A stretch of DNA of 64,000 nt, from the NCBI RefSeq assembly GCF_030296675.1, contig NZ_AP027736.1, positions 2,542,001 through 2,606,000 of the forward strand, given 5' to 3'. This stretch comes from Demequina sediminis (lineage in GTDB: Bacteria; Actinomycetota; Actinomycetes; Actinomycetales; Demequinaceae). The position numbers and the translations under genes are program-made. Below, piece by piece: positions 19,258 through 33,613 of the stretch (positions within the stretch are counted from its first letter, which is position 1; every line of letters starts with the position of its first letter). The notes under the pieces are model-generated. The model did not search any database. It was given only the letters and a program-made list of their open reading frames with translations, and was not told the origin of the DNA.

Positions 19258-20187
19258 TCAGGGTCTGGGCCGGCGCGTCGCGAGGACTCGCAGCAGCATC
19301 TCCCGGCACCACTCGGGCCGCTCGCGCAGGTCCCGAAACGAAAACCTGACGGTGTGCCAGCCTTCGGATGCGAACTCGACGTCCCTGGTGCGATCACTGT
19401 CGACGGCAGTGCGCGACGAGTGATAGCCCGCGCCGTCGAGCTCGATCACCACGCGGCGCGCGCGGTGCAGCGAATCTGCGGTCCGGTCCCGTCCGGCGAT
19501 CCGCATTGCGACGTGCCATTCGAGGTCGCGGAAGCGCTGGCCCGTGAAGACTTCGCGCCTCGCCATCACCTCCGAAGGAGACGTCGCACCGTCCAAGAAG
19601 TCGCCCATGATGGCATCGAAATGCGCACGGTCGGGTAGGCGACGCCGGCGCGCGGCTTCCGAAATCAGTCGCCTCGCGCCCACGATCTTCAGCCACAACG
19701 CCTGGTAGAGAATGTCCTTGCGGCGGTGCGCTGGGGCTCGGGCCCACGCGTCGAGCAGGGCGTCCTCGGCTGCCAGGCACGGCACCATTCGAAAGGTGGA
19801 CCTGGTGCGAGGCATAGGGCGTCGGCTGAGGTCCAGCCACGAAGGCGGGCGCGCATTCCAGTGCGGCGGCCCGATTGCTCTCACTCTTGCCGGGGCGGCG
19901 AAGCGTGGATTCGCAAGGTGAAGGGCGGACTCTCCGCCGATGAGTATCCGGCCCTTGCTCCACACTCGCACGGCGGCGCACCGTACGCGATGGTCCAGCG
20001 CGAGGTCTCCCGCGACGTAGATCCCTGGCAGCACCGAGACCAGTTCGCTGTGCGCGACTGCTGACTCGAGTCCGCGGCGCCCGATGGCGGCGAGAACCTC
20101 GGCGCGCGTCAGCGCCGGCTCGAAAGGCCCGTGGAGGCGCGCGAGGAGCTCCTCGATTGCGCGCGAGACGCGAGCGTGACGGGTCAT
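19258..20187 (-). CDS. AbiEi-like/DUF559 (Vsr-type nuclease fold) protein
   Basis: A 309-residue protein. The N-terminal part (LTRAEVLAAIG...HSELVSVLPGIYV) resembles the winged-helix antitoxin domain of AbiEi proteins. The C-terminal part (RVVIELDGAGYHSS..., D-R-x-R-D, GWHTVRFSFRDL) is a DUF559-type, Vsr-endonuclease-like domain. Such standalone proteins are common in actinobacteria and their function is unknown. No AbiEii partner is adjacent. Codon use is somewhat less extreme in GC than its neighbours, which may mean transfer. Confidence 0.7.
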   Translation of the reverse strand: MTRHARVSRAIEELLARLHGPFEPALTRAEVLAAIGRRGLESAVAHSELVSVLPGIYVAGDLALDHRVRCAAVRVWSKGRILIGGESALHLANPRFAAPARVRAIGPPHWNARPPSWLDLSRRPMPRTRSTFRMVPCLAAEDALLDAWARAPAHRRKDILYQALWLKIVGARRLISEAARRRRLPDRAHFDAIMGDFLDGATSPSEVMARREVFTGQRFRDLEWHVAMRIAGRDRTADSLHRARRVVIELDGAGYHSSRTAVDSDRTRDVEFASEGWHTVRFSFRDLRERPEWCREMLLRVLATRRPRP

Positions 20188-20264
20188 GCGTCATGGTCCG
20201 TCGCGGGGCTCGGCGCGTGCAGGTGACCGCGAGAATCTGTGGACAGCGACGTCACCCCGCGCCC

Positions 20265-20318
20265 CGCTGACACAACAGTGTCCAGAACGCTGCGAAATCG
20301 GGCACCCACGTGTCAGCG
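20265..20318. repeat. Intergenic inverted repeat (family A)
   Basis: CGCTGACAC (20265-20273) is inverted as GTGTCAGCG (20310-20318). The right side, GGGCACCCACGTGTCAG, closely resembles the right arm of the sucD hairpin. It lies in the gap 20188-20412 between divergent genes, so here it cannot be a simple terminator. Confidence 0.6.
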
Positions 20319-20412
20319 AGACGGGGTAGGGGGCGACGGAGCGGACGGGGCAGCAGGACGCGGTCCGGACCCCGCGCGCCGGTCCGCCGCATTGCGACCG
20401 CGCCGCGCGACC

Positions 20413-21771
20413 ATGGATGCCATGCCCTTCGACCCGCCGCGCCCGGCATCAACCCCGCGCCCGGACCCCGCGCCGCGCAGTTCGCGTCCCGCTCGCGCGC
20501 CGCGCGCCGTGCGCCGTGCGATCAGTCGCATGCGTGAGGCGCTGCCCGGGTGGGCCGGCGGTGTCCTCACGGGGCTGCAGGGCGTGCTGTTGTCCTATCT
20601 CGTGGTGCTCGCCCCCGCGCTCGCGGCGGTCGCGGGCGCGCCGAGCCTCGACGGCTCGGCCGCGGTCGATTGGTCGGGTGCCGCGACCGTGGCGACCCGC
20701 CTGTGGCTGCTCGGGCACGGCGTTCCGGTTCCGGCGGGTGACGGCGTCGTGTCGCTCGTGCCGCTGGGCATGGTGCTGTTGAGCGGCGCGATCCTCGCGT
20801 CCGTCGCGCGCCGCTTCGCGGTCAAGACGTGGACCAGCTGGGGACTCGCCGTCGCGGCCTTTGCCGGGGGTGCTGGGGTGATTGCGGGGCTGGCGACCGC
20901 CGCGACCGACTCGACCACGGCATCGGTCCTGCGGGCCACGACCGTGGGCGCGCTGATCGCCGCGCCGGCGGTGGCGATCGGGATCTGGCGCGCATACGGC
21001 GCGCGCCTCGAGATGCTCGACCGCATCCCCGCGACGATCCGTGCGGGGCTGCGCCTGGGCCTTGCGACGCTCGCCCTGGTGCTCCTGCTGGCCGCGGCAG
21101 CCGGAACTGCGTGGGCGGTGCTGGGGATGGACCGCGTCGCATCCACGGCGACCGGCCTCGCGATGGACCCGCTGGGCGCGGGCGCGCTCGCGCTGGGCGA
21201 GGTGCTCTACGTGCCCACGCTCGCGTGCTGGATGGTCGCGTGGGTGATCGGTCCCGGCTTCGTGGTGGGCACAGGGTCGCTGTACGCGCCCGACACCCTG
21301 ACGGAGGCCGCGCTGCCGCAGCTACCCCTGCTCGGCGCGCTGCCGTCGGGCTCCGGTGGATGGTGGGTATGGGCACCGGCGGTTGTGGCGGCACTCTCGG
21401 CGCTCGCGTTCGCGCTGCTCCACCGACGCGTGGGCCGTGGGTGGGCCGGGGCACGCGCGGCGGGCACCGCCGTCGCGGTGGTCGCCGCGGGTCTCGCTGT
21501 GCTCACGATGGTGTCGCGCGGGTCGATTGGCCCCGGGGCGCTCGCGGTCGCTGGCGCCGAGGTCGTGCCCGTCACGATCGTGGGAACCGCCCTGGTCGCG
21601 GGTGGCTACGCCGCGGTGTGGGGCGCACGCGAGGGGTGGCGGTGGCTGCGCTCTCGCGGGAATGATGCCGGTCGCACGGAAGATGCCGGTCGCGCCGGTG
21701 AGGATGCCGTGGGTCAGGGCGAGGTGTCGGCGGGCGGGGTGAGGCCCCAGCGCTCGAGCAGGTTGATGTAG
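20413..21771 (+). CDS. DUF6350 polytopic membrane protein
   Basis: A 452-residue protein with about ten transmembrane helices and a Pro/Arg-rich N-terminus (MDAMPFDPPRPAS). It matches the DUF6350 family normally encoded between sucD and purN in actinobacteria. Its role is unknown; some databases link it to cell division (PerM-like). The C-terminus (GRTEDAGRAGEDAVGQGEV then SAGGVRPQRSS) reads into the 73-bp repeat that marks the left edge of the island, so the last 20 or so residues may not be original. ATG 20413 was chosen; upstream in-frame starts pass through the family A repeat. Confidence 0.8.
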   Translation: MDAMPFDPPRPASTPRPDPAPRSSRPARAPRAVRRAISRMREALPGWAGGVLTGLQGVLLSYLVVLAPALAAVAGAPSLDGSAAVDWSGAATVATRLWLLGHGVPVPAGDGVVSLVPLGMVLLSGAILASVARRFAVKTWTSWGLAVAAFAGGAGVIAGLATAATDSTTASVLRATTVGALIAAPAVAIGIWRAYGARLEMLDRIPATIRAGLRLGLATLALVLLLAAAAGTAWAVLGMDRVASTATGLAMDPLGAGALALGEVLYVPTLACWMVAWVIGPGFVVGTGSLYAPDTLTEAALPQLPLLGALPSGSGGWWVWAPAVVAALSALAFALLHRRVGRGWAGARAAGTAVAVVAAGLAVLTMVSRGSIGPGALAVAGAEVVPVTIVGTALVAGGYAAVWGAREGWRWLRSRGNDAGRTEDAGRAGEDAVGQGEVSAGGVRPQRSSRLM

Positions 21772-21777
21772 GCCTGC
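21705..21777. repeat. Left copy of the 73-bp direct repeat flanking the island
   Basis: Identical to 33614-33686 at 69 of 73 positions. The right copy is the 3' end of an intact minus-strand gene (33623-34048); this left copy is a truncated duplicate of that 3' end. It marks the left boundary of an 11.8-kb accessory segment. Confidence 0.85.
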
Positions 21778-21849
21778 GGGAGTCTCGAGCGTTCGCGAGG
21801 GCGCCTGGCGCTGAAGTTGACCCCGTTTCCCGGACAGGTAGTTGGTTGG

Positions 21850-22683
21850 TCATGCGGCCAGCGCGAGCTGGCGGCGTTCGTACTCTAGCGGGCTGAGGTA
21901 GCCCAGGGCGCTGTGGCGTCGGCGGGCGTTGTACCAGCCGTCGATCCAGGTGTAGGAGCCTCGCCGGGCATCCTCGATGGTCGCGAAGACGTGCCGGTGG
22001 TAGTACTCGTTTTTGAACACCGACCAGAACGACTCGGCCGGGGCGTTATCCCAACACACGCCGGTGCGGCCCATCGATCGCAGCAGTCCGAGTTCCTTGG
22101 CGGCAGCGGCGATCTGTGCGCTGGTGTATTGGACGCCGCGGTCGGCGTGGAAGACGACCTTGCCGGCCAGGTCGCCGCGCAGGGCCACGGCCTGGCGCAG
22201 CGCGGCCTCGACCACGTCGGTGTGCAGCGAGTCGGCGACGGCCCGACCCAGGACCCTGCGGGTGTGTCCATCGCGCACGACGCACAGGTACGCCCAGCCC
22301 TCACCGGTGCGCAGATACGTGATGTCGGACAGCCACACGCAGTCACGTGCGCCGGTGTCGAAAGCGCGCTCGACAAGGTCAGGCACGGGGAACGGGTCGG
22401 CACCACGCACCGTGGTCGGCGGATGCCACGTGCGCGGGCTGATCCCTGCGATACCAGCGTCTTTCATCAACGACGCGACCTTCTTGCGTGACACCGCCAC
22501 ACCCTCGTCGCGCAGGTCCGCCCGGATGCGCGGGGCCCCATAGGTGCCAGCCGACGCATCGTGGAACGCGCGGATCTGAGCCGTGAGATCGGCATCGCGT
22601 TGCTCGCGCGCGGAGGGCCCTGCGGCCTGCCTGGCCCGCCACTCGTAGTAGCGGCGACGGTCCACGCCAAGCAGGTCGCACAT
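21850..22683 (-). CDS. IS3-type transposase OrfB (DDE integrase domain)
   Basis: A 277-residue rve-type integrase. The DDE triad lies in LSDITYLRTGEGW, VFHADRGVQYTS and NAPAESFWSVFKNE; the HTH_21-like region YGAPRIRADLRDEGV is N-terminal. The frame stays open upstream of the ATG (RFALIEAEKANYPVTRM), consistent with synthesis as an OrfAB fusion by -1 frameshifting from orfA. It is intact, so the element may be active. Confidence 0.92.
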   Translation of the reverse strand: MCDLLGVDRRRYYEWRARQAAGPSAREQRDADLTAQIRAFHDASAGTYGAPRIRADLRDEGVAVSRKKVASLMKDAGIAGISPRTWHPPTTVRGADPFPVPDLVERAFDTGARDCVWLSDITYLRTGEGWAYLCVVRDGHTRRVLGRAVADSLHTDVVEAALRQAVALRGDLAGKVVFHADRGVQYTSAQIAAAAKELGLLRSMGRTGVCWDNAPAESFWSVFKNEYYHRHVFATIEDARRGSYTWIDGWYNARRRHSALGYLSPLEYERRQLALAA

Positions 22684-22718
22684 GCGGGTGACCGGGTAGT
22701 TGGCCTTCTCCGCCTCGA

Positions 22719-23030
22719 TCAGCGCGAACCGTTCCTCCGGTCGTGCTTCGAGGCGAAGAAGGCCGCCGCTTTTCCCAAGAACTCGTTATCCATCCGCAGC
22801 TCGGCAACCTCGCGCCTGAGCCGATCGAGCTCGGCCCGCTCGTCGACATCCAACGGCCGCTCACCCCCGCCCGACCGTGCCCGCTCGGCCGCGACCCAGC
22901 GCCCCAACAAGGCCTCACCCACGCCGATCTCACGCGCCACCGCGACGATCGTGCGCCCGGTATCGATCACCAGCCGCGCAGCCTCACGCCGATACTCCGG
23001 CGTATACGTCTTCCTCTTCTTCGTGCCCAT
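22719..23030 (-). CDS. IS3-type transposase OrfA (helix-turn-helix)
   Basis: About 103 residues: MGTKKRKTYTPEYRREAARL opens a standard IS3 OrfA helix-turn-helix. A leucine-zipper-like region follows (ERAELDRLRREVAELRMDN). The ATG at 23030 has GGGAGG nine bases upstream and is preferred over the upstream ATG at 23063. A GGGAAAAG stretch (plus-strand cttttccc, about 22771) is a candidate slippery site for -1 frameshifting. Confidence 0.88.
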   Translation of the reverse strand: MGTKKRKTYTPEYRREAARLVIDTGRTIVAVAREIGVGEALLGRWVAAERARSGGGERPLDVDERAELDRLRREVAELRMDNEFLGKAAAFFASKHDRRNGSR

Positions 23031-23331
23031 CACGGACATCCTCCCCGACAGGCACTCGCTCACGCGAAACCCGTCTGGTCAGTGTCCGGAATCCGGGGTC
23101 AACCCCACGCTGCCGTACCGCGTCGTTGGCATGAAGCGAGTGTGACATATTGCACTCCGTGTTGCCTTGCGACGGGTGGTGTCTGTCCTGGTAGAAATGG
23201 CGCAGCTCACGAGTGGGGTTGCCTGGGGAGGTGGCTACGGAGCGGCGGTTGGCGTGGTGTCAGTTCCGCTGTTGCTGGCTTCTTTCTGTCTGGGGTTGGT
23301 CGTCTTGATCCTGTCTGGTGGGCGTGTGCGG

Positions 23332-26300
23332 ATGTCGGATCCGTGGTCCTTGTCGTTCCGGTTGGCGTCTATGTTGACGGCCGGGGCGTTGTGTGTCGTG
23401 GCAGTCACTGAGGCGGGCCCGGCCGCAGCGGCTGTGATCGAGGAGTCCGCGACGGATTGGACTGTGGCTGGTGCGTCTGGTGGTTTGACTGCGCCTGATG
23501 CTGTGTCGGCTTCGGTGTTGGCGCGGGTGCGTGGTGAGGCTGTTGAGGATGTGTCTCAGCGCACCGAGTCGTCGCAGACGTTCGCTCTTCCTGATGGTCA
23601 GTGGCGTTCGGATATGTCGAGTGGTCCGGAGTGGGTGGCGACGGGTGAGGATCCGTCGACGGAGGCTGGCTGGGAGCGTGTGGACACGCAGCTGGTGCGT
23701 TACAGCGATGGTTCGTATCGTCCGGTCGCGCATCCGGGTGATCTGGTGTTCTCCGGCGGGGGCAATGGGCGTGTCGACGTGGTCGCGGGTGTCGACGCTG
23801 AGGGGCAGCCGTTCACGTTGTCGTGGGAGGGGACTGTTCCGGCTCCGGTGGTTGAGGCTGACGCGATCCGCTATGTGGATGTGCTCCCTGGTATTGACTT
23901 GGTGTTCTATGTCACCGCTACGGGCTATGAGCAGTTCTTCGTGGCACATGACGCCGACGCTTTGGAGCGGGCCGAGCGGTTGACGTTGACGGTGGCCAGC
24001 CCTGACGGTGATTTGCGCAAGGCGCGCGAGGAAGTGGTGGTGCGTGGCAGTGAGGGCGACGTGGTCGCCCAGGTCTCTGATGTTGCGGTGTGGGATGCGC
24101 ACTCCGATGAGCGGCGTATGGTGCCGGTGGCGTCCATGGCTGCCGATGACGCGACACAGGCAAGTTCGGAGCCTGTGGTGGCCGCGAGCGTAACCGCGGT
24201 CGCGGATCTGAACGTTCCTCCGACGGAGATTGAGGTTCCTGCCGCGGTGGCGGTGACGGATGGTGTCGCGACCATCAGTGTCGACGCCGACGATGTGCCG
24301 TTCTCTGATGGTGACGCGTTCCCTGTGGTGATTGATCCGTCCGTGAACTTGTCGTTGACCTTTGACACGTACGTGTCGAATGCGTCGACGGTGGATAAGT
24401 CGTCCGAGACTGAGTTGCGGGTGGGGACGTGGGACTCGGGGGCTTCGAAGTACCGCTCGTATCTGAACGTGAACGTGTCGCCGATTCTGGGCAAGAAGGT
24501 CACGTCGGCGACGTTGAAGCTGTACAACTGGCATTCGTGGTCGTGCACGGCACGCAACTGGGAGGTGTGGTCGACGTCGACCACGTCGACCGCGACGCGA
24601 TGGTCGAACATGCCTGCGATGTCGGTGAAGTACGACACGGTGTCTTCTACGAAGGGCTACTCGTCGTCCTGCAGTGACGGCTGGGTCAGCGCTGATGTGA
24701 CCACGATGGCGCAGAACTGGTCGACGGGAACGGTCACTGCCAAGGGCATTGGTGTGAAGGCGTCCTCGGAGACGGACAACTCGTATTGGAAGCGGTTCTA
24801 CTCGGGTAACTCGGCATCGAACAAGCCGGTGCTGTCCGTGACGTATAACTCGTACCCGAACACGCCGATGGGTGTGAAGGTCAACGCAAGTGCACCGGTG
24901 GCGGGTTCGACGGTGTACACCAACGATCCGACCCCGACGTTCTCGGTGACGGTGTCTGATCCTGATGGCGGCAACGTGAAGGGCAAGTTCTCCTTCAATG
25001 GTGCAACAGCAGTGTCGGGCTCCACGGTGGCTAGCGGTGCGGTGTCCTCGTACACGCTTCCCACGCAGGCCAACGGGTCCTCGCGCACAGTCAAGGTGTG
25101 GGCCAACGACGGCTCGCTTGATTCCAAGGCGTCGTCGAACCCGACATGGTCGGTCGTTGTGGACACCGTCGCACCCGGCGCCACCACCATCAGCTCGGCG
25201 CAGGTGAGCCACGGGCAGTGGCTTGAAACTCCTCCGGCATCAATCAGCGCCTCACTGGCCGCGACCGATGCAGTGAAGTTCGAGTACAAGGTCGATGGCG
25301 GGACCGTGAAGACGGTGAACGCCACCTCGGGCAGCGCGATCGTGACCGGCCTGCCGCGCACGAACGGTGGTCACAAGGTCGAGGCGCGTGCGATCGACCG
25401 CGCCGGCAACACCAGCGCGTGGAAGACCCTCGAGTACGGCATCGGAACGGTCGGGATTACCTCCCCGACTGCGGCCTATAAGACCACCGACAAGGTCAAG
25501 ATCTCCGCTGATGCCCCTCCAGGAGCCAACGGCACGGTCAAGCGTGCTGTGTACTGGCGTGCGGGCGGCACGGCGAATGGTGCCGGGTACTCGGACGCGA
25601 CCGGGTCAACGGACGGTTGGGAGAAGATCGCTGACCTACCAGACGCCACCGCCGGGTCTAGCGCCAAGGCTGACTACACATGGAATGCCGCCGCCACCGC
25701 AGCAAGCGCGGGCAAGGAGCGCGTTCCTTTCCTGATGGAGGTGCAGGTGTGCTTCACCTACACCTACACCAACGATGTGCTCTGTACCTGGCGTGACGAC
25801 CCCGCGACGCATCCCTCGGTACTACGAATTCCGCATGCGTTTGGGAACAACTTCCCTGTGGCGGATGCTGGTCCGGGCCAGGTCTCGCTCTGGACGGGTG
25901 AGTTCCACGCCGGCGCGACGGATGCGGCCGTGCCTGGGTACATGGACACTCTCTCGGTGTCAAGGAACTATCTGACGTTCGGCGACGGAGGAGCATCGTC
26001 GGTGTTCGGTCCGGGTTGGATCGCGTCTTTCGACGGGCCGAGCGTGGGCGCGGCAGGTATGCGTGTGATCGACAACACCGGCGTCGATGGCACGATCGCT
26101 TTCGAGGACGGAACAGGTAGCTACTTCACGTTCCGGGAGCCCAGCGCGGGAATCGTCGCACGCGAGATCGGGGCCTATGCGCCGCTCGATCGCGCCACCA
26201 TTGCGTCTGGCGCCCAGCTTACTCTTACTGGTTCCGGTACCGCGGCACGCCTGGTCCTGACCGATGGCAACGTGTCGACGACGTGGTCGTATATGGCGAG

Positions 26301-29300
26301 CGGGGAGTGGAAGCCGCTGTACGTCGACAAGCAGGTGTCCGCAACAGCTGTGCTGCGGACCACCTACACGTATGACGCGCTGGGACGGGTGGAGTCGATC
26401 GTTGCCCCCGCGCCCGAGGGAGTCGACTGTTCGACTGTGTCGAGTGCCGGGTGCCGTGCACTCGAGATGACCTACTACACGGCCATGGACGCCGCGACGG
26501 GCGCCTACACGGGACGCATCGCGTCGATCGGGTACCGCGCCTGGGACCCCGACCTCGAAGCCATGCGTACCGACGCTGTCGTCGCCTACACCTACGATTC
26601 GTCAGGGCGACTGGCACGTGCCATCGACCCGCGCTCGGGCCTGGGCACGACGTACGGGTACACCATGTCCGGCGGAGTGTTGCTACTGACCCTCGTCGCC
26701 GAGAGCGGTCTCGCGCCGTGGACTATCGAGTATGGGACATCGACCCAAGGTGCGTCGTCCGTGCTGCGTGTCACGCGCAAGCACTGGGACGGAACGCAGG
26801 CTGACGTCCCGGTCGCACGATTCGTGTACGGCATCGACACGGCCAACCCGCCCGCGGCAAGCCCCGACATCCGGTCCGCCGCCACGGCGTGGACCAGTGA
26901 GCAGACGGCGACTACCGGGTTTGCAGTATTCGGCCAGGGCCACGACCCGGGTGGCTCGACCGTGGCAAGCGTCGACTCCAACGAGTGGCTCAACGCCTCG
27001 GTCACCTTCACCGACGCCCACGGCCGGGTGGTCAACACTGCCAACTACGGCGCTGGTGCCTGGCAGTACACCGCTAGCGACTACGACGACAACGACAACG
27101 TCGAGGGATCCCTCGACGTTTCGGGCACCACGACTGTGGCCAGCCAGGTTACCGAGACGGCGCCGACTGTCGATTATGACAATGTTCAGTCCGCCTCGAC
27201 CCGCACGGAATACAACGACTCCGGCACCCGGATCACCGACATCTGGACCCCGCAAGCTTACGGCGCGACCACCCACATCCATTACACCTACGCCGACGAG
27301 AACCCGGTCGAGGCAGAACGACCGCTCGCGGGAGCGGTACCCAACCTCGTATGGAAGACAGACATCACGTCCGAGAGGGGAAACTCCAGCTCTGTTATCA
27401 GCACGTACACCATGACCTACGCGGGCACCGCATGGTTTACTGGCGTGCCCTCCACCGTCACCACCACCGGAGCAGACACGGCCGAGAGCCTCTCGGCGGT
27501 CACAGGCTTCGACGCTCTCGGACGCCCCGTCCTCAGCCAAGAAGCTGGGTCCACCGGCGCAGATGCTGGCACTACCCACACGGTCTACTACACGGCCGGC
27601 GCCAATGACCTCGACACGGCCTGCGGCAACCAGCCCGCGTGGGCTGGCGAGATCTGTGTCACGAAGTCGCTCGCCGATCTCCCGCTGACCCGCATGACCC
27701 GGTACTCGATGTACCTCGATCCTGAAACGATCGTTGAAGGCGTCGGGAACGCCACACGGACCACGACGACGAGCTACCTCCTCGACGGACGGCTTGAGTC
27801 CACATCAGTTGCCACTATGGGCTTTCCGGGCTCCACGCCGCTACCCTCAACCTGGCACACGTACGACAGCACTACCGGACTGCAGACGAAGACAACGTCG
27901 GGATCGACCGCCGGGCCCGGCGTGCGTACGACCTACGACACCTGGGGACGCGTCCAGAACTACGTCGACACCGACGGCGCAACTACCGTCACCACCTACG
28001 ACATGTTCGGCAATGTTGGCAGCATCGACGACGGACTTCAGGTCACCACCTACACCTACGACGGTACCGATGCCAACGGCCTCGTCGAGCGCCGCGGACT
28101 GGTCACCGGCAAGGTCGTGACCAGTAGCGATGGGCAATCCTCGTATGCCTTCGCGGCAGCCTACGACGCAATGGGACGCCTGACGCGACAGACCATGCCT
28201 GGAGAAATCGTCCAGTTGACCACCTACAGCGACGCCGGCCACGTCGCTGAACTCTCCTACGCCTTCGTCACTGACGACGGGGAGACGCCTCTGCTGACCT
28301 GGTCAGCCGACTATGACGCTGCGGGCCGAATGACCGCAGAGTCAACACCAGCGACGGGACTCGATCCTGACCACGTCACGGGATTCGGACGCACCTACGC
28401 CTACGACGCGTTCGGGCGTCTCGTGACCGTCCAAGATCAGAGCCTGCTCTACGCAGATCCTGCGGATACAAGTGGCATCACACCATGCGTCACCCGGTCC
28501 TACACCTTCGACACGCGTGGCCACCGCCTCGCGCGAAACACCGCAATCTCCGACACCGCCAACGTATGTCCCGCCGTAGGAACCGGGACATCCGAGACCT
28601 GGACCTACGACAACAAGGACCGTGTCCAAACCGGCGCGAATGGGACCGGGTCGTACGTCTACGACCTATTCGGTCGTCAAACCACGATCCCAGCGGTCGA
28701 CACTGCTGGGGGCGTCGCTGCGGGTGACATCACGCTGGGCTACTACGACAACGACCTCGCCCACGCGGTCAGCCAGGCAGGCGTGACGACAACCTACAGT
28801 CTCGATGCCGCACAGCGACGCTCGATCGCGACCACCGTGTCAGGTGCTGGAACGTCGACGCTAGTGCGCCACTATGCCGATGGCTCCGACAACCCCGCTT
28901 GGGCCGTCGAGACCGACGTCAGTGGTGCGACGACCACAACATGGTATGGGTCCGCGATTGAGGGCGGACTCGGCCTGACGGTGTCCAGCGAAGTCGCGTC
29001 ACTTCAACTTGCGGACTTGCGCGGCGACATCGCGCTGCCGCTTACAATCGCCGCCGATGGGGCGGTGACAGGGGTCGGCGCGTACTCCGACTACGACGAG
29101 TACGGTCGCCTCCTCGCCGGCAACGTCGCAGCGGCAACGGGTGCAATCACCTACGGCTGGCTGGGATCGCATGAGCGTGCGGCCGACAGCTTCGGACTCA
29201 CCCTCATGGGCGTGCGCCTCTACAATGCGCAGACCGGTCTGTTCACTTCCGTTGATCCGGTTGTGGGTGGGAATGAGACCGTCTACGGGTATCCAGCAGA

Positions 29301-29691
29301 TCCAATCAACAAACTAGACACCACCGGCGCACTAAGCGCATGGGCCAAGGCCGGGTTGTGGGCGGCCGCCCTTGTCATTGCGGGCGGTGCGCAGGTCTTC
29401 TGCACAGCGTCGATTGCCCTGCGCCCAGTGTGCACAGGCTTTTTCACCGGAGTGTCGAGCATTCTCAAGGCCCTTGCGGACAACAACGGTACCCTGACAA
29501 CCAAGCAAATCGTGAGCGCCTTCATGAAAGGTTTCGTCGCGGGCGCCTTCTTAGGAGCGAGCAAAGTCGTACTGGTTCGATTCATGAAAAGCTCGCTCGG
29601 TAAGCGGGCAAGTGATTGGATTTTGCGTAAGGGCAGGGGTGGCCGTATGGAGCCAGCCATCAACAAGTTCTTTCAGTGGCTATGGTACTAG
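23332..29691 (+). CDS. Giant secreted RHS/YD-repeat protein, predicted polymorphic toxin
   Basis: About 2,119 residues from the ATG at 23332; the frame is open from a TTG at 23167 with another ATG at 23197, so the start is uncertain. 23332 is preferred because a signal peptide follows directly (LASMLTAGALCVVAVTEAGP). Domains in order are a beta-rich N-terminal region, a DNRLRE-like domain (about 338-503), Ig-like segments (about 503-720), then about 1,000 residues of YD/RHS repeats (such as TYTYDALGRVESI). The canonical RHS core follows, near 1948-1999 (GVRLYNAQTGLFTSVDPV, YGYPADPINKLDTTG). The last 120 residues are a hydrophobic, Gly/Ala-rich variable tip ending in basic residues. In this family the core shell encloses a C-terminal toxin. 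The toxin activity here is not recognised. Confidence 0.85.
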   Translation: MSDPWSLSFRLASMLTAGALCVVAVTEAGPAAAAVIEESATDWTVAGASGGLTAPDAVSASVLARVRGEAVEDVSQRTESSQTFALPDGQWRSDMSSGPEWVATGEDPSTEAGWERVDTQLVRYSDGSYRPVAHPGDLVFSGGGNGRVDVVAGVDAEGQPFTLSWEGTVPAPVVEADAIRYVDVLPGIDLVFYVTATGYEQFFVAHDADALERAERLTLTVASPDGDLRKAREEVVVRGSEGDVVAQVSDVAVWDAHSDERRMVPVASMAADDATQASSEPVVAASVTAVADLNVPPTEIEVPAAVAVTDGVATISVDADDVPFSDGDAFPVVIDPSVNLSLTFDTYVSNASTVDKSSETELRVGTWDSGASKYRSYLNVNVSPILGKKVTSATLKLYNWHSWSCTARNWEVWSTSTTSTATRWSNMPAMSVKYDTVSSTKGYSSSCSDGWVSADVTTMAQNWSTGTVTAKGIGVKASSETDNSYWKRFYSGNSASNKPVLSVTYNSYPNTPMGVKVNASAPVAGSTVYTNDPTPTFSVTVSDPDGGNVKGKFSFNGATAVSGSTVASGAVSSYTLPTQANGSSRTVKVWANDGSLDSKASSNPTWSVVVDTVAPGATTISSAQVSHGQWLETPPASISASLAATDAVKFEYKVDGGTVKTVNATSGSAIVTGLPRTNGGHKVEARAIDRAGNTSAWKTLEYGIGTVGITSPTAAYKTTDKVKISADAPPGANGTVKRAVYWRAGGTANGAGYSDATGSTDGWEKIADLPDATAGSSAKADYTWNAAATAASAGKERVPFLMEVQVCFTYTYTNDVLCTWRDDPATHPSVLRIPHAFGNNFPVADAGPGQVSLWTGEFHAGATDAAVPGYMDTLSVSRNYLTFGDGGASSVFGPGWIASFDGPSVGAAGMRVIDNTGVDGTIAFEDGTGSYFTFREPSAGIVAREIGAYAPLDRATIASGAQLTLTGSGTAARLVLTDGNVSTTWSYMASGEWKPLYVDKQVSATAVLRTTYTYDALGRVESIVAPAPEGVDCSTVSSAGCRALEMTYYTAMDAATGAYTGRIASIGYRAWDPDLEAMRTDAVVAYTYDSSGRLARAIDPRSGLGTTYGYTMSGGVLLLTLVAESGLAPWTIEYGTSTQGASSVLRVTRKHWDGTQADVPVARFVYGIDTANPPAASPDIRSAATAWTSEQTATTGFAVFGQGHDPGGSTVASVDSNEWLNASVTFTDAHGRVVNTANYGAGAWQYTASDYDDNDNVEGSLDVSGTTTVASQVTETAPTVDYDNVQSASTRTEYNDSGTRITDIWTPQAYGATTHIHYTYADENPVEAERPLAGAVPNLVWKTDITSERGNSSSVISTYTMTYAGTAWFTGVPSTVTTTGADTAESLSAVTGFDALGRPVLSQEAGSTGADAGTTHTVYYTAGANDLDTACGNQPAWAGEICVTKSLADLPLTRMTRYSMYLDPETIVEGVGNATRTTTTSYLLDGRLESTSVATMGFPGSTPLPSTWHTYDSTTGLQTKTTSGSTAGPGVRTTYDTWGRVQNYVDTDGATTVTTYDMFGNVGSIDDGLQVTTYTYDGTDANGLVERRGLVTGKVVTSSDGQSSYAFAAAYDAMGRLTRQTMPGEIVQLTTYSDAGHVAELSYAFVTDDGETPLLTWSADYDAAGRMTAESTPATGLDPDHVTGFGRTYAYDAFGRLVTVQDQSLLYADPADTSGITPCVTRSYTFDTRGHRLARNTAISDTANVCPAVGTGTSETWTYDNKDRVQTGANGTGSYVYDLFGRQTTIPAVDTAGGVAAGDITLGYYDNDLAHAVSQAGVTTTYSLDAAQRRSIATTVSGAGTSTLVRHYADGSDNPAWAVETDVSGATTTTWYGSAIEGGLGLTVSSEVASLQLADLRGDIALPLTIAADGAVTGVGAYSDYDEYGRLLAGNVAAATGAITYGWLGSHERAADSFGLTLMGVRLYNAQTGLFTSVDPVVGGNETVYGYPADPINKLDTTGALSAWAKAGLWAAALVIAGGAQVFCTASIALRPVCTGFFTGVSSILKALADNNGTLTTKQIVSAFMKGFVAGAFLGASKVVLVRFMKSSLGKRASDWILRKGRGGRMEPAINKFFQWLWY

Positions 29692-30152
29692 AAAAGTGGT
29701 TATCAATGAGGCGAGCGTTGACCTGGGCGTGGGTAGCAACGGTCTATATCGGCTGCGTCGTGGTGGTCATATCAATCCCGCCGTTGTCGGGACATTCCTT
29801 CTGGAGAATCGTAGCCGTGTTCGCGCTCGGTGCCCCGGCGCTAATTGTGGCGCGGCGATTTGATGGCCGTGCCCGTGGGGACCGGCGAGGGCTGCCCCTG
29901 CCCGTTGTTGGGCTCGACGGCGGGGAGTGGGCTCTACATCTTGATGGCATCCCGGAAGGCGGCGGTGAGCGAGTCGAGATCATGCGTTACCTGATGCAGT
30001 CTCATGGCGTCTCAGTGAGCGCAGCGAAGGGTGCGGCGTTCGCAGAGAGTTTTCCTGTGGTGATTGCGGCTGGTGCGAGCAGTGAAGTCGTTGGTGCGTT
30101 CGCGAAGGCCCTTCGCGAACTGGGGGCGAGCGTCTCCGTCCACCAGGGATGA
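29682..30152 (+). CDS. Small membrane protein with L7/L12-like C-terminus, candidate immunity protein
   Basis: A 156-residue protein whose start overlaps the RHS stop (29689-29691), as expected for an immunity gene. Two transmembrane helices (about residues 13-33 and 38-57) are followed by a linker and a C-terminal domain. That domain's pattern (GVSVSAAKGAAFAESFPVVI, then A-x-L-R-E-L-G-A-S-V-S-V) resembles the ribosomal L7/L12 C-terminal fold. An ATG at 29706 (MRRALTWAW) is an alternative start. The immunity role is inferred from position and from the membrane nature of the toxin tip. No known Imm family was recognised. Confidence 0.55.
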   Translation: MVLEKWLSMRRALTWAWVATVYIGCVVVVISIPPLSGHSFWRIVAVFALGAPALIVARRFDGRARGDRRGLPLPVVGLDGGEWALHLDGIPEGGGERVEIMRYLMQSHGVSVSAAKGAAFAESFPVVIAAGASSEVVGAFAKALRELGASVSVHQG

Positions 30153-30304
30153 ACATTGCATTGGTGATGGCTCTAGCGGCTCCTCGCAGTTGACGGTGTA
30201 GCGCGTGGGGCGTGGTGAACGAACAGGTGACAGTCTGACCTGACCCACGGTTTGGTTACCAGTGGCAGTGTGTCGTTCAGGCTCGATTGCGAGGAGTCCG
30301 AACC

Positions 30305-30601
30305 ATGCCAAAGCCCTACCCTTCCGAGTTTCGTCAGCGAGCTGTCGCGCCCGTGCGTGCCGGCAAGCCCGTCACCGTCGTTGCCCCGAGCCTAGGCATC
30401 AGCGAGGGGTGTTTGCGCAACTGGGTGCGTCAGGACCGGATCGATCATGACGAAATCGCCGGGACGACAACGACCGAGAACGCCGAGCTGAAGGCGGCCC
30501 GCAAGCGCATCCGCGAACTCGAACGTGAAGTCGAGATTCTGCGCGTCGCGGGCAAGCTCCTGGGAGAGGACAAGCCTCACCCAAAAGAGTCCACCCGGTG
30601 A
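30305..30601 (+). CDS. IS3-type OrfA transposase subunit
   Basis: A 98-residue helix-turn-helix protein (MPKPYPSEFRQRAVAPVRAG) with a C-terminal coiled coil (ELKAARKRIRELEREVEILR). It is complete because the nested element inserted just after it and duplicated the target. Its orfB partner is far downstream and broken. Confidence 0.88.
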   Translation: MPKPYPSEFRQRAVAPVRAGKPVTVVAPSLGISEGCLRNWVRQDRIDHDEIAGTTTTENAELKAARKRIRELEREVEILRVAGKLLGEDKPHPKESTR

Positions 30602-30630
30602 TCGACCTCCTCGTCGCCGTCGGGCACCCC
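30429..30630. repeat. Left copy of a 202-bp perfect target duplication
   Basis: Identical to 32356-32557. It covers the 3' part of orfA and the first bases of orfB of the host element. It ends exactly where the IS1634-like terminal repeat begins, so it is a target-site duplication made by that insertion. Confidence 0.93.
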
Positions 30631-32355
30631 CTGACTCGTGCCACCCTCGCCTCGGCGTACGGCTCGGGCCCGATGTACCTGGGGCTTCGTGTTGGGGTGG
30701 GGTGTGTGTCGGTCACTAGGAAGTCGGTTGTGGGAGTCTTCGGGGGTGGCTTCCCGGTTCGTGCGTAGGGTTCGCACCACGTCCGGCGCGGTCGCGGTGC
30801 AGATCATCACGCGCATCCCGGGTGAGGCCGACAGCATCGAGCATGTCGGGTCGGCCCACACGGATGCGGAGCTGGCGGTGTTGATGGCTCTGGCGCGTGA
30901 CCGCGTCGCTCCTGGGCAGGGCGAGCTCGACCTGGGCGCGCTTGCTGCGGTGCCGGCGCGGATGGACGACATCGCGGACTGGACGGCCGCCAAGGTCGAA
31001 GCGGCCGACGCGGCTACGGGTGTGGGCCGGCCGGTGAAGGTCGCCGCGGGCGGGCGCACGGTCCGCACCTCTGCGACGGTGCTGTGGCGCGTGTTGACGG
31101 ACGCGTACACGCGGCTGGGATTCGACGTCGTCGACGACGAGGCGTTCCGGGCGATGGTGCTGGCGCGGCTGATCGAGCCGACATCGAAGGCCGACACGGT
31201 GCGGGTCTTGGCGTCCGTGGGCGCGCCGCCGGTGGCGCTCAGAACGCTGTTCCGGTCGCTGCAACGCGTGAATGAGCGCGGCTACCGCGACCAGATCGCC
31301 CGTGCCTGCCTGGCCTACTCATTGAAGGCGACCGGTCCGGCGACGTTCGTGATGTACGACGTGACGACCCTGCATTTCGAGAACGACGACGAAGACACCC
31401 TGCGACGTGTGGGGATGTCCAAGGAACATCGCGTGGACCCGCAGGTCCAAGTCGGGCTCCTCGTCGACCAGGCCGGGGTGCCGCTCGAGATGCACCTGTT
31501 CGAAGGCAACAAGGCCGAGACCACCACCCTGATCCCGGTGCTGCACGCCTTCCAGACCCGTCACGGCATCGACGACATCGTCGTCGTCGCCGACGCCGGC
31601 ATGCTGTCCGCCGGTAACCTCAACGCCCTCGAGGATGCGGGCTTGTCGTTCATCGTCGGGTCCCGTCTGACGAAAGCGCCCTACGATTTGGACGATCACT
31701 TCCACGCCCACGGCAACCACTTCACCGACGGGCAGATCCTCGAATCCACGCGCGTGATGGGCTCCGGGGCCGGCGCGCGTGAACGGCGGATCGTCTACCA
31801 GTGGTCGTTCAAACGCAACAAGAGGGACGACCGCAACATCAACCTCATGATCGCCAAGGCCGAAAGAATCGCCGCCGGACAGATGCCGCTACGCAAGACA
31901 CGGTTCTTGAAGGTGTCCGGTGCGCGCAAAGAGCTCGACCAGGCCACCATCGACCGTGCCCGCCAACTGGCCGGCATCAAGGGCTACGTCACGAACATCC
32001 CACCCAAGATCATGCCTGGCAGCGCCATCATCGGCGCCTACCACGACCTGTGGAAGGTCGAGCAGTCATTCCGCATGACAAAGTCCGACCTGAAAGCCCG
32101 ACCGGTCTTCCACCACAGGCGCGACGCGATCGAGGCGCACCTGACCGTCGTGTTCGCAGCCCTCGCCATCGCCCGCCACCTGCAAGCCGCCGGCGAGATG
32201 AGCATCAAGAAAATCATCACGACGCTGCGCGAGGTCCGCTCCTCCACCGTCAGCATCAACGGCGAGACCATCACCTTCGAAGCCGAGCTCGAAGAAGACG
32301 TCCAGGCACTACTCGATCGACTCGAATCCAGTCACTAGGGAGTGGCACGAGTCAG
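30631..32355 (+). mobile_element. IS1634-like insertion sequence
   Basis: 1,725 bp with perfect 14-base ends CTGACTCGTGCCAC (30631-30644) and GTGGCACGAGTCAG (32342-32355). It encodes one full-length transposase. It is flanked by a 202-bp perfect direct repeat. The IS1634/IS1549 group is known for unusually long target duplications. The perfect identity of the copies suggests a recent insertion. Confidence 0.93.
30746..32338 (+). CDS. IS1634-family (IS4-like) DDE transposase
   Basis: About 530 residues from the GTG at 30746 (VASRFVRRVRTTSG, the usual N-terminus). Upstream in-frame codons read through the IS end and were excluded. Likely catalytic acids lie in MYDVTTLHFE, VVVADAGMLS and YHDLWKVEQSFRMTKSDL. 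It ends four bases before the right terminal repeat. It is intact, so the element is probably functional. Confidence 0.92.
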   Translation: MASRFVRRVRTTSGAVAVQIITRIPGEADSIEHVGSAHTDAELAVLMALARDRVAPGQGELDLGALAAVPARMDDIADWTAAKVEAADAATGVGRPVKVAAGGRTVRTSATVLWRVLTDAYTRLGFDVVDDEAFRAMVLARLIEPTSKADTVRVLASVGAPPVALRTLFRSLQRVNERGYRDQIARACLAYSLKATGPATFVMYDVTTLHFENDDEDTLRRVGMSKEHRVDPQVQVGLLVDQAGVPLEMHLFEGNKAETTTLIPVLHAFQTRHGIDDIVVVADAGMLSAGNLNALEDAGLSFIVGSRLTKAPYDLDDHFHAHGNHFTDGQILESTRVMGSGAGARERRIVYQWSFKRNKRDDRNINLMIAKAERIAAGQMPLRKTRFLKVSGARKELDQATIDRARQLAGIKGYVTNIPPKIMPGSAIIGAYHDLWKVEQSFRMTKSDLKARPVFHHRRDAIEAHLTVVFAALAIARHLQAAGEMSIKKIITTLREVRSSTVSINGETITFEAELEEDVQALLDRLESSH

Positions 32356-32557
32356 GTCAGGACCGGATCGATCATGACGAAATCGCCGGGACGACAACGA
32401 CCGAGAACGCCGAGCTGAAGGCGGCCCGCAAGCGCATCCGCGAACTCGAACGTGAAGTCGAGATTCTGCGCGTCGCGGGCAAGCTCCTGGGAGAGGACAA
32501 GCCTCACCCAAAAGAGTCCACCCGGTGATCGACCTCCTCGTCGCCGTCGGGCACCCC
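32356..32557. repeat. Right copy of the 202-bp perfect target duplication
   Basis: Identical to 30429-30630. It carries a second, 5'-truncated piece of orfA and restores the start of orfB. Confidence 0.93.
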
Positions 32558-33413
32558 GTCCTGACCTGCTGCCGCATCCTGGGCGTGTCCAAGCCTGGTT
32601 ACTACCGCTACAAGCATCGCCCGACCTCCCCGACGAAGATGCGCCGCGAGTGGCTCTCCGGGCTCATCCGCGAGGTTCACCTCGCTTCCCGCGGCACGTG
32701 TGGCTACCGCAGAGTTCACGCCGAACTGACGATGGGAATGGACGTCTCAGTCAGCTCCAGGCTCGTGTTCACCTTGATGCACGACGCAGGCCTCTACGGA
32801 CTCCCGGGACCGACACGGATCAAGCGGCTACGAGGCGTCGTGACCGCCGACGACCTCGTGAACCGCAAGTTCCACCGGATGAAGCCCAACGAGCTGTGGG
32901 TCACCGACGTGCGCTCCAACACAGGACGCGGGAAGGCTGGCTGTACTGCTGCTGCGTCCTGGACGCCTTGCGCCGCAAGATCGTCGGCTGGTCCATCGAC
33001 TCCAGTGCCGACACCCGACTCGTACTGAACGCCCTCGACATGGCCATCAAGACCCTTGGGCCCCGCGCCCGGAGGTATCGTTCATGCCGACCACGGAGCC
33101 CAATTCACGTCCGGGGCTTGTCACGCAACCGCATCCGCGCCGCCGGCCTCATGCCCTCGTTCGGCACCGTCGGCGACGGGCTCGACAACGCGTGTGAATG
33201 GAATCGTTCTGGTCCTCGATGCAGATCGAACTGCTCGACCGTCAACGATGGAACACCCGCGTCGAGCTCGCCAACGCGATCTTCGAGTACATCGAGGTGT
33301 GGCACAACCGCGCTCGACGCCACTCGTCGATCGGATATCTCACGCCCGTCGACTTCGAACTACAGTCACAAAAGCACACCATCCCCGCCCGCACGGCACA
33401 CCTGATCAGGTAA
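32525..33413 (+). pseudogene. Decayed IS3-type OrfB transposase
   Basis: It begins MIDLLVAVGHPVLTCCRILGV in the frame expected after orfA. Integrase-like sequence (YRRVHAELTMGMDV, NELWVTDV) then moves through other frames: EGWLYCCCVLDALRRKIVGW, VHADHGAQFTS, SFGTVGDGLDNA and MESFWSSMQIELLDRQRWN. At least three frame changes lie outside G/C runs, so this looks like true decay rather than the undercalls seen in housekeeping genes. Without a working OrfB the host element should be immobile unless helped in trans. Confidence 0.82.
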
Positions 33414-33613
33414 CCAAACCGTGGGTCAGGTCAAGATGTCACCTATCCGTTCACCACGCCCACCGGCACCGTCCTCCTTTCGGCTCCTTGGTGCCGCTCT
33501 GGTTGACGATGCCGGTCGGCTTCATAGCGGCGTGCCTTGTGGGGGTGCCCCTCCCGCGCGGACGTGGCTCTTCCCGATTCGCACAAGAGTCCGTCAGTCG
33601 AGGGACACCGGGT

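Follow-up and report, generated by a model that had tools for sequence, protein, structure and literature searches.

Tse5, an effector of the rearrangement hotspot (RHS) type, forms pores in membranes, and its immunity protein carries two predicted transmembrane regions (PMC9637101). Immunity proteins with two transmembrane segments (Imm-CdiI and Imm17) and a pore-forming tip, Tox-WTIP, had previously been catalogued by Zhang et al. 2012 (PMC3482391). Protection from the LXG toxin EsxX relies on membrane proteins together with a cytosolic pair of alpha/beta fold that grips the glycine zipper of the toxin (PMC12744356). A membrane-anchored ClpS-L7/L12 domain has also been described beside Lipocone genes, in a different setting (PMC12419801). 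Here, we analyse a 64,000-nucleotide stretch of the 2.7 Mb, single-contig Demequina sediminis genome (the window; NZ_AP027736.1, positions 2,542,001 to 2,606,000), in which an RHS gene ends in a hydrophobic, basic tip and is overlapped by a small gene for a membrane protein with an L7/L12-like domain. The cassette appears intact and is probably a genuine toxin–immunity pair of the membrane type; an earlier sequence-only reading to this effect is partly supported.

The RHS gene (23332–29691, plus strand, as are all features of the pair) encodes 2119 residues in a frame that is open since 23167, likely starts at the ATG at 23332 and runs uninterrupted up to its stop at 29689–29691. By eye, the N terminus resembles a Sec signal peptide (about 23332–23433). 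The protein further contains a DNRLRE domain at residues 345–504 (24364–24843; NCBIfam NF033679, E=5.4e-24), RHS repeats with a match above the family's own cut-off, and the end of the conserved part, the Rhs-associated core, at 29092–29328 (TIGR03696, E=3.2e-7; 30.8 bits, slightly below the cut-off of 32.5). The gene thus has the repeats, core and variable tip by which RHS polymorphic toxins are recognised, and a small gene overlapping the RHS stop occupies the position of the cognate immunity gene in such toxins.

Beyond the core, the tip comprises 121 residues (29326–29688). The sequence-only reading had described a hydrophobic segment followed by basic helices in the last 120 or so residues, a description borne out by hydropathy, charge and a structural model. 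In 19-residue windows the hydropathy stays above 1.0 across residues 1–52 and 60–92; residues 14–32 form the sole segment above 1.6, and a second, 66–84, peaks at 1.59. Lysine and arginine number 15 against three aspartate or glutamate residues, and a model computed without an alignment (mean predicted local distance difference test score of 60) shows five helices at residues 5–28, 30–52, 59–88, 90–103 and 110–120. The hydrophobic hairpin holds a cysteine pair, C-x9-C (29401–29433), of the form C-x(5-14)-C found in 15% of shuffled tips. Helix 3 carries an extended glycine zipper, A-xxx-G-xxx-G-xxx-G (29518–29556; 4% of shuffled tips), with GxxxGxxxG at residues 69–77 (3% of shuffled tips). The basic C-terminal helices with their aromatic tail lie at 29593–29685, and among four segments tested for helical moment only residues 105–121 are clearly amphipathic (p=0.003; 0.054, 0.60 and 0.80 for the others). 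The tail is rich in tryptophan, as in a good share of the relatives: among the 85 other tips, 24 have tryptophan at one of the final three positions, where composition predicts 10.2 (p=6e-5, post hoc).

The tip was also said to belong to no recognised family, and this held. Neither Pfam nor NCBIfam gave it a trusted match (best prePAAR_I at E=0.3 and FocA at E=0.021), and nothing appeared up to E=10 among PDB sequences, a set in which the presence of Tse5 is unverified. When 49 tips and 19 partners were scanned against NCBIfam, no toxin or immunity family emerged for the window pair, and the Tox-WTIP motif, Wx[ST]IP, is absent from the 121 residues. A fold search with the tip model returned unspecific helical and membrane proteins only.

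The partner (29682–30152, 156 residues; alternative starts GTG 29676 and ATG 29706) overlaps the RHS stop and contains two membrane segments (29715–29852), both as first proposed; the hydropathy peaks of 2.16 and 1.87 exceed 1.6, and the model places helices at residues 2–30 and 37–64. The distribution of positive residues outside both segments, judged by eye, suggests that the N and C termini are cytoplasmic. The proposed likeness of the C-terminal domain (residues 78–156; 29913–30149) to ribosomal L7/L12 has support from profile and sequence searches and, tentatively, from a modelled fold, and falls short of a formal family assignment. Against the Pfam L7/L12 profile the whole protein gives E=0.02 and the domain alone E=0.0035, with 18.1 bits against PF00542, below the curated cut-off of 25.9; none of nine shuffled copies matched L7/L12. 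In a search of PDB sequences the top seven matches were all L7/L12 (best E=0.011), and a low-confidence model adopts the ClpS/L7-L12 fold.

We next consider the tips found behind the same core. Its end is present in 39 of 396 genomes of the order (E<=1e-15) and 17 of 394 of the class (E<=1e-30), the window's own genome included in both, and, for three further families searched at E<=1e-25, in 24 of 186, 6 of 47 and 17 of 101 genomes. Varied tips and varied next genes follow the conserved core, and 85 other tips were compared. The discovery set held 61 tips, seven of which were dropped as open or shorter than 60 residues, leaving the window tip and 53 others, 47 of these with an assigned partner. 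At 121 residues the window tip lies at the low end of this set, with eight of the 53 equally short or shorter, and it falls below the whole range of the 24 cysteine-pair tips that have membrane partners (123–168 residues).

Within the discovery set, a membrane protein follows 12 of 15 tips that carry a cysteine pair in a hydrophobic segment, compared with 7 of 32 other tips (p=0.0003, post hoc). This rule, a C-x(5-14)-C pair within a hydrophobic stretch together with a membrane partner, was found post hoc and then written down before fresh genomes were analysed; the window pair shows both features. Applied with the same criteria to fresh genomes, it gave membrane partners for 12 of 13 tips with the pair and 5 of 14 without (p=0.0044), following an interim count of 5/5 against 3/7 (p=0.08), and the earlier suggestion that a membrane partner suits a membrane-type tip was upheld in this form. 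The prior written plan named two families; a third was searched alongside the first fresh count, and the second named family yielded no new cassette. From 36 fresh rows, four were excluded for being open or short (L118, L144, L146 and the second of L149) and five lacked an assignable partner (L117, L119, the second of L125 and L135 with the pair; L141 without), which left 27. For L117 the candidate next frame, whose start falls just outside the assignment rule, is a two-segment membrane protein, and for L119 it is a soluble one. The frame taken as the partner of L114 is probably not the right one, and the choice for L147 is doubtful; leaving out these two and applying a stricter criterion, set after the event, changes the fresh counts to 9/11 and 1/14. 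Discovery and fresh sets combined give 24/28 against 12/46, or 20/28 against 7/46 when at least two hydrophobic segments are required in the partner. Because related cassettes do not count as independent observations, these p-values err on the favourable side. Eight taxonomic families (f1, f3, f9, f11, f17, f37, f51 and f59) contribute cysteine-pair tips that have a membrane partner. The combination of a membrane-type tip with a membrane partner seems to recur as a class, to which the window pair belongs by architecture and not by sequence. Across 24 cassettes (window included, L114 omitted), tip similarity and partner similarity are weakly linked (rho 0.16, p=0.019).

Other candidate hallmarks of the class were rejected. 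Membrane partners accompany 4 of 12 tips with a strict glycine zipper and 32 of 62 others, and a looser zipper definition gives 15/24 against 21/50 (p=0.14). Tip hydrophobicity alone predicts the partner poorly in this survey (rho 0.22, p=0.14; p=0.06, 0.07 and 0.25 when thresholded).

Several further arrangements were seen in the survey. Three fresh membrane partners of tips lacking the pair (L121, L125 and L134) look secreted or like lipoproteins by eye. At L040 (499–1494, minus strand) the tip and its membrane partner, PH-like by eye, share one uninterrupted 332-residue frame after the core, either a natural toxin–immunity fusion or a lost stop. The tips of L027, L030, L035, L038 and L098 resemble one another by eye in a C-terminal pattern built around FRVS and HxH; the partner, where one was assigned, is soluble, and these tips may constitute a separate toxin family. 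In one genome (G001; L017 and L018) the RHS core end occurs four times, followed by different tips; three of the four lie in short frames, and one tip is broken by a stop codon. Two long tips (L104 and L110, 337 and 364 residues) contain an apparent intein-like (Hint) domain that separates the toxin from the core, again judged by eye.

Searches for relatives of the tip returned two weak matches in 297 genomes of the order, both in unrelated-looking frames, a single match in a scan of genome contigs, in a frame devoid of RHS features and taken as spurious, and none in viral contigs. For the partner, 72,556 plasmid records and 59 relatives contained no relative other than the window itself, and none was found in viral contigs by a search sensitive to close relatives only. 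In 386 genomes of the order, 146 (own included) gave matches at E<=0.1; at four inspected loci (L069, L070, L073 and L077) these were partial domain alignments to longer, unrelated-looking frames and were taken as chance, and the rest were judged by E-value alone, with no trusted relative among them. Within the genus, small membrane proteins that carry an L7/L12-like domain are encoded at three loci (L160, L162 and L163), between genes that by eye resemble those for a pyrophosphatase and a transporter, and two genomes (G020 and G011) carry two membrane L7/L12-like proteins in tandem. A test for homology between the partner and these proteins was negative: a profile built from five of them places the partner at rank 954 in a field of 1060 made up of shuffled copies and other partners.

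The surroundings of the pair carry signs of mobility on both sides. An IS3-like element (21816–23103), whose inverted ends measure 21 bases, stops 228 bases short of the RHS ATG. A second IS3-like element (30208–33461), with inverted arms at 30208–30282 and 33387–33461 and split by a DDE transposase gene, has its end 55 bases past the partner stop. It contains an exact 202-base duplicate (30429–30630 and 32356–32557) that far exceeds the usual target duplication. The G+C content is 0.56–0.58 in the two 500-base intervals that cover the tip and the beginning of the partner gene, compared with 0.60–0.68 along the rest of the RHS gene and more than 0.70 at 20000–21999; the low value fits a cassette that may have been acquired.

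Judged by analogy with the ionophore toxins of contact-dependent growth inhibition (CDI) and with Tse5, we consider it on balance likely that the pair is a cognate toxin–immunity cassette with a membrane-depolarising tip and a two-helix immunity protein bearing an unusual cytosolic domain. In such a scheme, the RHS protein would be exported and its 121-residue tip freed from the RHS shell, to insert into the cytoplasmic membrane of a competitor as a helical bundle, in the order hydrophobic hairpin with the cysteine pair, glycine-zipper helix and basic amphipathic helices. The inserted tip would dissipate the membrane potential. The partner hairpin, with both ends in the cytoplasm, would meet the tip within the membrane and block its insertion or assembly, and the L7/L12-fold domain might, as a guess, hold the basic tail of the tip or guard against toxin made inside the cell. 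Some findings weigh against this interpretation. The tip scores no better than its shuffled copies against a profile of the cysteine-pair class, and no sequence homology to other members of that class was found; four cysteine-pair tips have soluble partners; and at least 3 of 44 genomes from the genus encode membrane proteins that carry an L7/L12-like domain and have no RHS gene nearby. The last finding bears on the original proviso that the partner should not be widespread away from RHS genes, which survives for the partner itself, given the lack of a trusted relative in the order genomes, relatives, plasmids and viral contigs, and less cleanly for proteins of its general design.

Similar proteins give some substance to the idea that the partner is a membrane-anchored L7/L12-like protein of other function, placed here by chance: other species of the genus encode L7/L12-like proteins with one or two membrane segments between putative genes, named by eye, for a proton-pumping pyrophosphatase and a major facilitator superfamily transporter. 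Since the profile of five such proteins fails to single out the partner, and the partner overlaps the toxin gene with a start comparable to that in 24 of the 47 other discovery cassettes with assigned partners (within the final 60 bases of the toxin frame), we regard a chance neighbour as very improbable. The tip could instead be a degenerate or truncated remnant of rearrangement between the flanking insertion sequences, leaving an inactive pair; its shortness relative to 24 of 24 class tips and the want of a clear relative for tip or partner in the collections searched point this way. However, both frames are open and overlapping, both insertion sequence ends lie outside the genes, and the tip retains the tryptophan-rich tail, so that decay seems improbable to us, if less so than a chance neighbour.

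An intact tip could still act otherwise, with the hydrophobic part serving as a translocation linker and the short basic C terminus as a cytosolic toxin on nucleic acid or the ribosome, bound by the L7/L12-like domain of the partner. Other members of this RHS family (L027, L030, L035 and L038) place a hydrophobic linker, which in one case contains a cysteine pair, ahead of an apparently soluble toxin with a soluble partner, and a glycine zipper helps to bring the DNase effector Tde1 into the cells it attacks (PMC10240207). Against this, only about 30 residues follow helix 3, which is small for an enzyme, and the partner has membrane segments; we hold the linker explanation to be unlikely, while giving it more weight than a remnant. 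The related concern, voiced from the outset, that the tip is merely a truncated linker keeps some weight: its length and the linkers of the same family speak for it, and the overlap with the partner and the tryptophan-rich tail against it.

A fold like that of the ribosomal stalk or ClpS would, if confirmed, be unusual for an immunity protein. The simple cysteine-pair rule, which predicted membrane partners in fresh genomes, would also help to tell membrane-acting from cytosolic tips among the unannotated RHS tips of actinobacteria. In the sources as consulted, the characterised membrane-acting RHS effector, Tse5, comes from a Gram-negative bacterium, whereas the present case is actinobacterial. 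With Tse5-CT/Tsi5 the window pair shares the RHS core, a membrane-type tip lacking an enzymatic signature and a two-transmembrane immunity protein; Tse5 is an effector of a type VI secretion system, whereas the RHS protein here is apparently Sec-exported (by eye) and has a DNRLRE domain. The CDI ionophore toxins (CdiA-CT of the EC93 type) likewise have a helical C-terminal tip and a GxxxGxxxG motif, and the window tip has five helices in its model. The carrier here is an RHS protein of an actinobacterium and not CdiA, and no separate entry domain is evident in the 121 tip residues. CdiI, like the partner, has two membrane helices, in the partner presumably with both ends inside; the partner adds the L7/L12-like domain, and the likeness rests on features, not on direct sequence comparison. 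That domain shares its likely fold and length with the C-terminal domain of ribosomal L7/L12 and with ClpS, and differs from ribosomal L7/L12 in being membrane-anchored and not ribosomal. The portions of the literature searched contained no report of an immunity protein with an L12 or ClpS domain, and within them the kind of system is known and the combination of tip and partner looks new. EsxX, with its immunity proteins ExiCD and ExiAB, has a glycine zipper in common with the window tip and is carried by a type VII secretion system. More speculatively, and with less confidence than we give the linker explanation, an actinomycete RHS class with a cysteine-paired hydrophobic hairpin might attack membranes and be countered by a membrane hairpin joined to a cytosolic ClpS/L7-L12-fold domain that captures the tail of the tip, passes it on to the Clp protease or acts as a mimic of the ribosomal stalk. 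The window partner would then unite, in one protein, the membrane and cytosolic protections that EsxX producers divide between two protein pairs.
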